From a virus, in the IMG/VR virus record IMGVR_UViG_3300044695_008713, positions 1 to 27,638 of that record: 27,638 bases of DNA; one strand, written 5' to 3'. The notes under the pieces were generated by a model, which saw nothing but the letters and a program-made list of their open reading frames with translations, was not told the origin of the DNA and did not search any database. A program made the translations under genes and the position numbers. Shown piece after piece: positions 2,482 through 4,685 of the stretch; positions within the stretch are counted from its first letter, which is position 1, and the number at the start of each line of letters is the position of its first letter.

Positions 2482-3435
2482 TTGAATGTCTTGGCTTTAT
2501 GTGCCGGCGCTGGCGGGCTTGAGCTTGGCCTGCGTCTCGCCGTGCCTGATGCCCGTGCCGTTTGTTATGTCGAGGGGGAAGCCTATGTTGCCAGCCTCCT
2601 TGTTGCGCATATGGAAGCAGGACGGTTGGATCCGGCGCCTGTCTGGTCTGATGTTAGAACCTTTGACGGCCAGCCATGGCGTGGCAAAATTGATTGTATC
2701 ACTGCCGGATACCCCTGCCAGCCCTTCAGCATCGCAGGGAAAAAACGCGCTGCCGATGACCCACGGCATTTGTGGCCACACGTTGCCCGCATCGCCCGTG
2801 AAATCCAACCCCAGTGGTGCTTTTTCGAGAACGTTGCCCACCATTTATCGCTGGGATTTGAACAGGTCTGCCATGACTTGGGCAATATGGGTTATGCGGT
2901 TGCGGCAGGCTTGTTTAGCGCGGAAGAAGTGGGTGCGCCGCACCGCCGCGAGCGGTTGTTTATCGTGGCCTACCGTGCGCGTGTCATCGGCGAACGGGCC
3001 GTCATCGCGGGAGATTGCAGCGGGCAACCCGAAACAGCGGCTGGAAGTGGATGTGGTGCATTGGATGCAGAATCTCTGGCCGACCCCACGGGCGCAGGAG
3101 CCAGGCAGCACCAGCGACAATTACAGCATGGGGTTGGCCGAAACGACAAAAGTTTGGCCAACCATCACGGCGCAGGATGCGAAGAACAATGCGGGGGCGA
3201 GCCAGTTTCAGCGCAACACCAAGCCGCTGAATGTGGAGGCGGCCTTACACTGTTCCCGCCCCACCCCGACGGCGACTGGAGTAGCGTCCCAGCCCACCTT
3301 AAACCCAGCGTTCACCGAATGGCTGATGGGCTGGCCCATCGGGTGGACCGCATCCGCGCCTGCGGTAACGGGGTGGTACCGCTGGCAGCAGCATATGCGT
3401 GGCGCACTCTCCGCGCTTGTTTCGATCAGGACTGA
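2482..3435 (+). CDS. DNA (cytosine-5-)-methyltransferase, Dcm family
   Basis: 317 residues with the C5-MTase motif order: AdoMet-binding ALCAGAGGLELG (residues 5-16), catalytic PCQPFS with Cys79, ENV at 116-118, the QxRxR-type HRRERLFIVA (154-163), a variable target-recognition region, and a late motif RVDRIRACGNGVVP close to the C-terminus. It methylates cytosine in a specific site; in a phage this usually protects against host restriction. The start is TTG at 2482, since no in-frame ATG precedes motif I; ribosome site is weak. The region after residue 164 is Gly/Ala/Gln/His-rich, and the +1 frame over the same DNA encodes another methyltransferase-type C-terminus (see finding). Confidence 0.85.
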   Translation: MNVLALCAGAGGLELGLRLAVPDARAVCYVEGEAYVASLLVAHMEAGRLDPAPVWSDVRTFDGQPWRGKIDCITAGYPCQPFSIAGKKRAADDPRHLWPHVARIAREIQPQWCFFENVAHHLSLGFEQVCHDLGNMGYAVAAGLFSAEEVGAPHRRERLFIVAYRARVIGERAVIAGDCSGQPETAAGSGCGALDAESLADPTGAGARQHQRQLQHGVGRNDKSLANHHGAGCEEQCGGEPVSAQHQAAECGGGLTLFPPHPDGDWSSVPAHLKPSVHRMADGLAHRVDRIRACGNGVVPLAAAYAWRTLRACFDQD

Positions 3436-3472
3436 CTATGAACGACTTGCACATCCAGCAGTATCCCCTTGA
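2975..3472 (+). CDS. Alternative-frame methyltransferase-type C-terminal region (WPTP repeats)
   Basis: This frame is open from 2486 to 3472; only the part after about 2960 looks protein-like. It reads WPTVRVSSANGPS, then NLWPTPRAQEPGS, VWPTITAQDAKNN, RNTKPLNVEAAL, RPTPTATG and LNPAFTEWLMGWPIGWT. WPTP-type repeats ending in LNPxFxEWLMGxPxGWT are, from family knowledge, the C-terminal region of a set of phage cytosine methyltransferases, normally fused directly to the catalytic domain. Here they lie +1 to it. GTG at 2975 is given only as the first start-like codon in this part; no ribosome site is seen, so expression would need frameshifting or a weak internal start. It may be non-expressed overprinting. 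Confidence 0.4.
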   Translation: MRVSSANGPSSREIAAGNPKQRLEVDVVHWMQNLWPTPRAQEPGSTSDNYSMGLAETTKVWPTITAQDAKNNAGASQFQRNTKPLNVEAALHCSRPTPTATGVASQPTLNPAFTEWLMGWPIGWTASAPAVTGWYRWQQHMRGALSALVSIRTDYERLAHPAVSP

Positions 3473-4685
3473 ACGCTTGATCCCCTACGCCCGCAATGCG
3501 CGGACACACGCGGATGAACAGATCAGCCAGATTGCGGGCAGCATTGCGGAGTTCGGCTTTGTGAACCCGATTCTTATCGGGGATGACAACGTCATCATCG
3601 CTGGGCATGGGCGCTTGATGGCTGCGCAGCGATTGGGCTTGCCGACAGTGCCAGTGATTATGCTGGCGCATCTCAGTGAAACCCAGCGGCGGGCACTGGT
3701 CATTGCCGATAACAAAATCGCCGAAAACGCAGGCTGGGACGAAGAGATGCTCCGCATTGAGTTGCAAGCCCTTCGGGAAGCGGATTTTGATCTGGACATT
3801 ACGGGGTTTGATTTTGAGGATATCGACAGGCTTCTGAACGGTGAATCGGCTGAAAACCAACCTCTTACCGACGATGACGCCGCCCCTGAAGTTCAAGAAA
3901 ACCCGATATCGCAGCCCGGTGACCTGTGGTTGCTCGGTGATCACCGTGTGCTTTGCGGCTCGGCCACGGTGTTGGCGGATCTGGAAAAGGTTATGAACGG
4001 CCAACTGGCCGACATGGTCTTTACCGATCCGCCCTACAACGTGGATTATGGCAATACGGCAAAAGATAAAATCCGGGCCAAAGGCGGCAAAAAAGCGGGC
4101 CGCACCATCATGAACGATAACCTCGGTGAGGGATTCGAGCAGTTTTTGTACGATGCCTGCGTCAATTTTCTCTTGGTCTGCAAGGGTGCGGTGTATGTGT
4201 GCATGAGTTCCAGCGAGCTGGACACGCTGCAATCTGCCTTTCGCAAGGCAGGCGGCAAATGGTCAACCTTCGTCATCTGGGCGAAAAATACCTTCACGCT
4301 GGGACGCTCTGATTACCAGCGGCAGTATGAGCCGATTTTGTATGGCTGGAAGGAAGGCGCAGAGCATTTCTGGTGCGGCGCACGCGATCAAGGCGACGTC
4401 TGGTTTTTTAACAAACCCCAGAAAAACGATCTGCACCCCACCATGAAGCCGGTGGAACTGGTGGAACGGGCGGTGCGTAATTCCAGCAAGACGCGTGACA
4501 TCGTGCTCGATCCGTTCGGCGGTTCTGGTTCTACCCTTATCGCTTGTGAAAAAACCGGGCGGCAGTCGCGGCTGATTGAACTTGATCCCCGCTATGTCGA
4601 CGTGATTGTGAAGCGGTGGCAGGATTTTACGGGGAAAACGGCGATCCGCGAAGACGGAACGCCGTTTTCTTCCGGGTCACTTTAG
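3438..4685 (+). CDS. ParB-domain DNA methyltransferase (N6-adenine/N4-cytosine type)
   Basis: 415 residues in two parts. Residues 1-95 form a ParB/sulfiredoxin-like N-domain (LIPYARNARTH, GFVNPILI, IIAGHGR). From about 155 comes a beta-class N6/N4 methyltransferase with motif IV DPPYNVDYG (197-205) and AdoMet motif DPFGGSGST (358-366) at the C-terminal end. DPPY favours adenine over cytosine as substrate. Such fusions are common in phages and mobile elements and are orphan modifiers without a restriction partner; none is seen here. The start at 3438 lies 3 nt after the upstream stop with AGG at 3428-3430; the extended frame from 3399 only reads through the previous gene. Confidence 0.88.
   Translation: MNDLHIQQYPLERLIPYARNARTHADEQISQIAGSIAEFGFVNPILIGDDNVIIAGHGRLMAAQRLGLPTVPVIMLAHLSETQRRALVIADNKIAENAGWDEEMLRIELQALREADFDLDITGFDFEDIDRLLNGESAENQPLTDDDAAPEVQENPISQPGDLWLLGDHRVLCGSATVLADLEKVMNGQLADMVFTDPPYNVDYGNTAKDKIRAKGGKKAGRTIMNDNLGEGFEQFLYDACVNFLLVCKGAVYVCMSSSELDTLQSAFRKAGGKWSTFVIWAKNTFTLGRSDYQRQYEPILYGWKEGAEHFWCGARDQGDVWFFNKPQKNDLHPTMKPVELVERAVRNSSKTRDIVLDPFGGSGSTLIACEKTGRQSRLIELDPRYVDVIVKRWQDFTGKTAIREDGTPFSSGSL

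Follow-up and report, generated by a model that had tools for sequence, protein, structure and literature searches.

In known C5-methyltransferases, motif IX packs the target-recognition part against the remainder of the enzyme. M.EcoHK31I, which recognizes YGGCCR and is grouped with M.EaeI, has a small subunit of 176 aa. Lee, Kam and Shaw are said to have reported in 1995 that its coding sequence lies within that of the large subunit, in a different frame, and that both subunits are needed. M.EcoHK31I is a two-chain C5-methyltransferase: motif IX is found in the smaller polypeptide, and motifs I-VIII and X are found in the larger (PMC3404938); the title of a 1995 paper, as cited there, speaks of two proteins required for in vitro methylation. 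In M.AquI, motifs IX and X belong to beta, together with the distal variable region (PMC3404938).

Here we analyze a methyltransferase gene in a 27.6 kb IMG/VR virus record, IMGVR_UViG_3300044695_008713 (the whole stretch is called the window below). At the sequence level, this gene and its relatives show selection on both frames, obligate co-occurrence of the two ORFs, a division of the motifs between them and tandem starts. The gene probably encodes a two-polypeptide C5-methyltransferase that works like M.EcoHK31I: an alpha chain (motifs I-VIII and X) and a beta chain (motif IX), read from nearly co-extensive frames with tandem starts. We hold this reading with good confidence.

The two frames and their surroundings

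All features described here are on the + strand. The alpha ORF (frame 1, 2482-3435) begins with TTG and encodes 317 aa, a C5-cytosine methyltransferase with motifs I-VIII and X. The beta ORF (frame +1, 2486-3472) begins with ATG, encodes 328 aa and is co-extensive with alpha. The two start codons stand in tandem in the string TTGAATG (2482-2488), with the beta ATG 4 nt 3' of the alpha TTG and a beta-frame TGA immediately 5' of the beta ATG. The first-pass annotation had described a double reading at 2960-3472 with both frames open for roughly 950 bp. Both are open over that length, and the overlap is wider than 2960-3472: it takes in the entire gene (~950 bp).

Upstream, GGAA at 2472-2475 may, from a reading of the sequence, act as a weak Shine-Dalgarno for both starts. 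A promoter-like TTGACA-17-AATTAT lies at 2439-2467 (10/12 in a consensus scan, a consensus match alone being no evidence of function). The repeats GGTTGAC and GTCAACC cluster at 2322-2447 in direct and inverted orientation, and inverted-repeat arms at 2383-2404 and 2423-2444 are 82% complementary. This cluster overlaps the promoter-like site and is a possible operator of the methyltransferase gene. A short tandem array, CTACGCA..CTAC with 10-nt spacing, is found at 2078-2132, 3' of the upstream ORF. The next gene after alpha (3438-4685) encodes a ParB_N + N4/N6 DNA methylase fusion (Pfam ParB_N 4e-7, N6_N4_Mtase 4e-26). The beta ORF extends ~35 nt into this gene, so that three coding frames nearly meet at 3399-3472.

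Selection on the two frames and their co-occurrence

An open +1 frame may arise from codon bias, base composition or conservation of alpha, with no second protein at all: G+C-rich DNA commonly has long shadow ORFs, and frame-1 conservation by itself yields some frame-2 similarity. We permuted the synonymous codons of frame 1 within each gene, which preserves the alpha protein and its codon usage. For the window alone, about 1 in 300 such shuffles leaves the +1 frame equally open. The counts for sets of homologues rest on regions defined by frame 1 alone; regions trimmed to both ORFs have zero +1 stops by construction. The set found by frame 1 (79 homologues) had 12 internal +1 stops versus 293.5 expected, and the set found by frame 2 had 0 versus 224.7. 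By contrast, 124 single-chain phage C5-methyltransferases spanning 0.3-0.7 G+C had 1740 versus 1892 expected, none of them being stop-free, and the +2 frame showed no stop depletion in the forward shuffle. Nulls that keep the alpha protein and codon usage still predict hundreds of stops, and we consider a mere by-product of alpha to be refuted as an explanation of the sequence and exceedingly unlikely overall.

In the reverse shuffle, which keeps frame 2, frame-1 stops numbered 0 versus 317 expected in the N half and 0 versus 291 in the C half. The depletion of stops in both directions indicates that the two frames are maintained along the whole gene. Depletion of +1 stops is strong in the second and third gene fifths (2 stops observed and 171 expected in the frame-1-found set, 0 and 180 in the frame-2-found set) and in the second fifth alone (2 observed and 95.5 expected, or 0 and 93). 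At the protein level, 75 of the 80 real beta C halves beat all 40 of their shuffles. Between subfamilies, conservation of the beta N half is weak, yet stops are avoided there; the pairwise excess in this half (z 4.1) exceeds that of the single-chain controls (z 2.7) by a moderate margin only. The N half is conserved in the MSWLFSQALV subfamily, where one member (L004) scores 276 bits versus 125 in shuffles. Divergence by codon position, in the 3' part of close pairs, was 0.38, 0.20 and 0.26 at frame-1 positions 1, 2 and 3, with its peak at the position that is third in beta; flanking genes gave 0.21, 0.15 and 0.40, as a control that still contains a few shadow ORFs, and phage mosaicism limits the matched-pair rates. 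Frame 2 is open and constrained beyond what frame 1 imposes, as is the case in a genuine overlapping pair.

A tblastn search with the beta protein returned 57 phage records, and among the relatives fetched the match falls on the methyltransferase gene. Homologues that retain one open frame only, an outcome envisaged in the first-pass annotation, did not appear among 80 viral loci collected from IMG/VR by frame-1 alignment alone: all 80 have both ORFs, in phase +1. The same is true of 80/80 IMG/VR loci collected by the frame-2 protein alone. All 80 loci found by frame 2 in bacterial genomes also have both ORFs; these genomes include Acinetobacter, Pseudomonas, Enterobacterales, Verrucomicrobia and Planctomycetes. 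A start-site pattern, TGAATGAGYTGGCTYTWY, has at least 120 matches, with the ORF pair present in 111 of 120 among the matches listed. Beta was found without alpha in none of the complete loci tested. The arrangement recurs across hundreds of phage and prophage loci, and the real overprinting that had been suspected is borne out by the shuffle tests in both directions together with one-to-one co-occurrence. A plasmid search with frame 2 gave four records only. For one bacterial locus the search was extended to 198 genomes of its family, 12 of which had nested beta ORFs; among the loci returned, all five on the + strand overlap an alpha ORF.

The string NTGAATG, which puts the beta ATG 4 nt after an alpha start codon, was present in 95 of 174 loci, 83 of them with a purine-rich Shine-Dalgarno-like core upstream. 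The alpha and beta ends lie no more than ~20 nt apart in half of the loci. Annotators have chosen differently between the frames. Only beta is annotated in Synechococcus phage Ssp-JY39 (L002, 2998-4113, 'hypothetical protein') and Acidovorax phage Alfacinha1 (L003, 3004-4137, 'cytosine-specific methyltransferase'), where the catalytic ORF in the other frame is left unannotated; elsewhere the choice fell on frame 1 (L004, L006) or on both (L005).

Division of the motifs between alpha and beta

Alpha matches PF00145 (1e-33) over residues 1-167 only and TIGR00675 over residues 4-167 only, both matches ending after motif VIII. Its PHROGs match is phrog_363 (3e-59), whereas beta matches phrog_1008 (7e-28, residues 63-290); both families are labeled DNA methyltransferase. 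No family in Pfam or NCBIfam matched beta, and the literature searched contained no statement that phrog_363 and phrog_1008 are two frames of one gene.

By pattern, motif IV (PCQ with the catalytic Cys, 2713-2721), motif VI (ENV, 2827-2835) and motif VIII (GAPHRRER, 2932-2955) all fall within the alpha ORF. The beta frame carries WPTP, WPTI and RPTP repeats over 3077-3268 (3077-3088, 3155-3166 and 3257-3268), also identified by pattern. Motif IX, LNPAFTEWLMGWPIGWT, is in the beta frame at 3299-3349, and motif X, RVDRIRACGNGVVP, is in the alpha frame at 3340-3381 (GNGVV at 3364-3378), each by HMM and pattern. In a PF00145-type enzyme, one chain has motifs IX and X as well as I-VIII; alpha has X without IX. 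The two motifs share about ten bases, in agreement with the original observation that the same bases encode both end signatures. The methyltransferase-typical C-termini noticed in both frames are likewise real, because X in frame 1 and IX in frame 2 belong to one enzyme.

This division holds across the 174 loci. At least one WPTP-like repeat is present in 165. Motif IX was detected by pattern in the beta frame of 142 loci and in the alpha frame of one; for motif X, the pattern matched the alpha frame in 162 and the beta frame in 7. The strict motif-IX pattern was unmatched in 32 of the 174 beta ORFs, some of which are truncated at contig ends. HMMs of motifs IX and X, built from 124 single-chain C5-MTases, gave the same result: the motif-IX HMM matches frame 2 at LMG[WF]P, with low scores per sequence that cover this core only (median ~2 bits), and never exceeds 5 bits in frame 1, while the motif-X HMM is positive for frame 1 and negative for frame 2, where it exceeds 5 bits in only 2/182. 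In one variant locus (L130, ~2490-3460), motif IX (PDWVEWLMGWP) is now in the alpha frame and motif X is gone from it; this exchange may stem from an indel of natural origin close to the motif-IX codons or from an error of sequencing there.

A catalytic domain and a motif IX in different frames are also what an ordinary gene split by a sequencing error or a recent frameshift would look like. Hundreds of independent contigs, however, show the same division, as do finished phage genomes, and alpha stays open past the supposed shift with motif X in frame. We take such a split to be refuted by the sequences, its probability being practically nil.

Beta might also be made only as a fusion, if a +1 ribosomal frameshift 3' of motif VIII gave an alternative single-chain enzyme with I-VIII from alpha and with the WPTP segment and motif IX from beta. 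In keeping with this, beta is most constrained in its 3' part, and in some phages, for example Peaches (gp77/gp76) and KHumphrey (42/43), an alpha ORF for I-VIII and a beta ORF for TRD-IX-X are distinct and overlap only briefly, at +1. Such a shift leaves unexplained both the stop-free beta frame upstream of it, in the second fifth as elsewhere, and the conservation of a beta ATG 4 nt 3' of where alpha begins; its product would here be without motif X. We thus judge a fusion to be unlikely. The first-pass suggestion that a frameshift yields two proteins differing in their target-recognition regions is not favored either: the frame-2 first half is kept free of stops, and frame 2 has its own ATG in the 95 NTGAATG loci, as would be expected if beta is initiated independently and not reached by a shift within the gene.

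Another reading gives beta a function of its own, for example in regulation or in anti-restriction, with nothing but overprinting to connect it with the methyltransferase. The conserved N half of the MSWLFSQALV subfamily would fit this, as would the failure of beta to match any known domain. Yet beta never occurs apart from alpha in the complete loci tested, and its best conserved block is motif IX, which alpha lacks. A separate function is therefore improbable. We also considered whether beta could be a hidden homing endonuclease, such an insertion in a phage methylase being mentioned for ShiLan in PMC11855218, and rejected this candidate: no nuclease domain was found in beta.

We return to the two-subunit enzyme. 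Each frame holds conserved enzyme parts that are absent from the other, and the two proteins thus probably assemble into one enzyme. Alpha would supply AdoMet binding, catalysis (motifs I-VIII) and motif X, and beta the WPTP segment and motif IX. We infer that beta is translated: ribosomes recruited at one site would initiate either at the NTG of alpha or at the ATG of beta 4 nt downstream. Initiation from a shared site would produce both subunits from one message and would require the first half of beta to remain stop-free. An alpha-beta heterodimer would then assemble, with beta presumably required for activity, and would methylate phage DNA at its target sequence, most likely as a protection against host restriction. 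AlphaFold2 models of beta alone, from two alignments, were of low confidence (pLDDT 59.6 and 52.4); a Foldseek comparison of the beta model with the PDB gave no match and a beta sequence search of the PDB no relative. A low-confidence model would not be surprising if beta needs its partner in order to fold, although it gives no support for that either.

Comparison with known systems

The arrangements found in phages can be placed in a series, which is undirected: the order of the forms implies no direction of change. MM1, SPR and SchottB have a single chain. Peaches gp77/gp76 and KHumphrey 42/43 have an AquI-like split with a short +1 overlap. In SCS44 (the E. coli phage vB_EcoS_SCS44), KpV2811, Vaitephage and Jacopo, beta starts further inside the alpha gene. 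The window, ABMM1 and most of the frame-2-found IMG/VR set have the co-extensive form with tandem starts. A switch between two historical forms of one gene family had been offered as an alternative to overprinting; it is partly right, since among relatives these motifs occur in a single chain, in a split pair or in nested ORFs.

Long, nearly co-extensive overlapping genes on the same strand are rarely kept over large evolutionary distances, and both frames here appear to serve one enzyme. They offer a clean system in which to ask how one DNA sequence satisfies two proteins. They also bear on how an enzyme splits and rejoins, with single-chain, AquI-like, EcoHK31I-like and co-extensive forms all in phages, and they constitute a large natural supply of split methyltransferases. 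Databases label either or both frames 'DNA methyltransferase', so that real subunits go unnoticed, and a single ORF tested for activity would probably fail.

The literature searched, which covered few subscription papers, gave no description of the co-extensive form, of its tandem start or of its wide occurrence among phages and prophages. The two-polypeptide kind is already known from M.EcoHK31I, and the silence on the co-extensive tandem-start phage form is weak evidence of novelty. We lean, by a little, towards a very widespread and undescribed class of overlapping genes, in which tandem starts lead to translation of nearly the whole methyltransferase gene in both frames, yielding complementary subunits of one enzyme, in phages and prophages of several bacterial phyla, and in which the beta N half would have a role of its own in some subfamilies.

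Single-chain phage C5-methyltransferases (SPR, MM1, CcrColossus and SchottB) share this set of motifs and its order along the DNA. They differ in that motif IX is in the catalytic frame and the +1 frame is full of stops. Two of them serve as bridges, with the IX block followed by X in one frame: SchottB (L190) reads 'LSPVFVEWMMGLPRGWVT...MLGNGVVP' and CcrColossus (L193) 'EECEVLMGMPPGYTDI...YAIGNSLAVP'. In Gordonia phage SchottB (L190, 1435-2505), where IX and X are in the catalytic frame, an LPTP-repeat stretch in the +1 frame ends in a stop and looks like a relic of a frame change.

M.AquI resembles the window gene as a naturally split C5-methyltransferase, but motif X remains in alpha here, and the small subunit does not unite IX and X. 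Closer to M.AquI than the window gene is gp77/gp76 of mycobacteriophage Peaches. The AquI-like look of this pair (L185, 1306-2401) and of genes 42/43 of Arthrobacter phage KHumphrey (L007, 2436-3492) may reflect either a dimer or a programmed frameshift.

M.EcoHK31I is nearest in motif layout: the division is the same, with I-VIII and X in one chain and IX in the other. The small-subunit ORF here overlaps the large one in another frame, as is reportedly the case in M.EcoHK31I. The window gene differs in being carried by a phage and in its beta, which at 328 aa extends over the entire alpha gene from a start 4 nt 3' of that of alpha.
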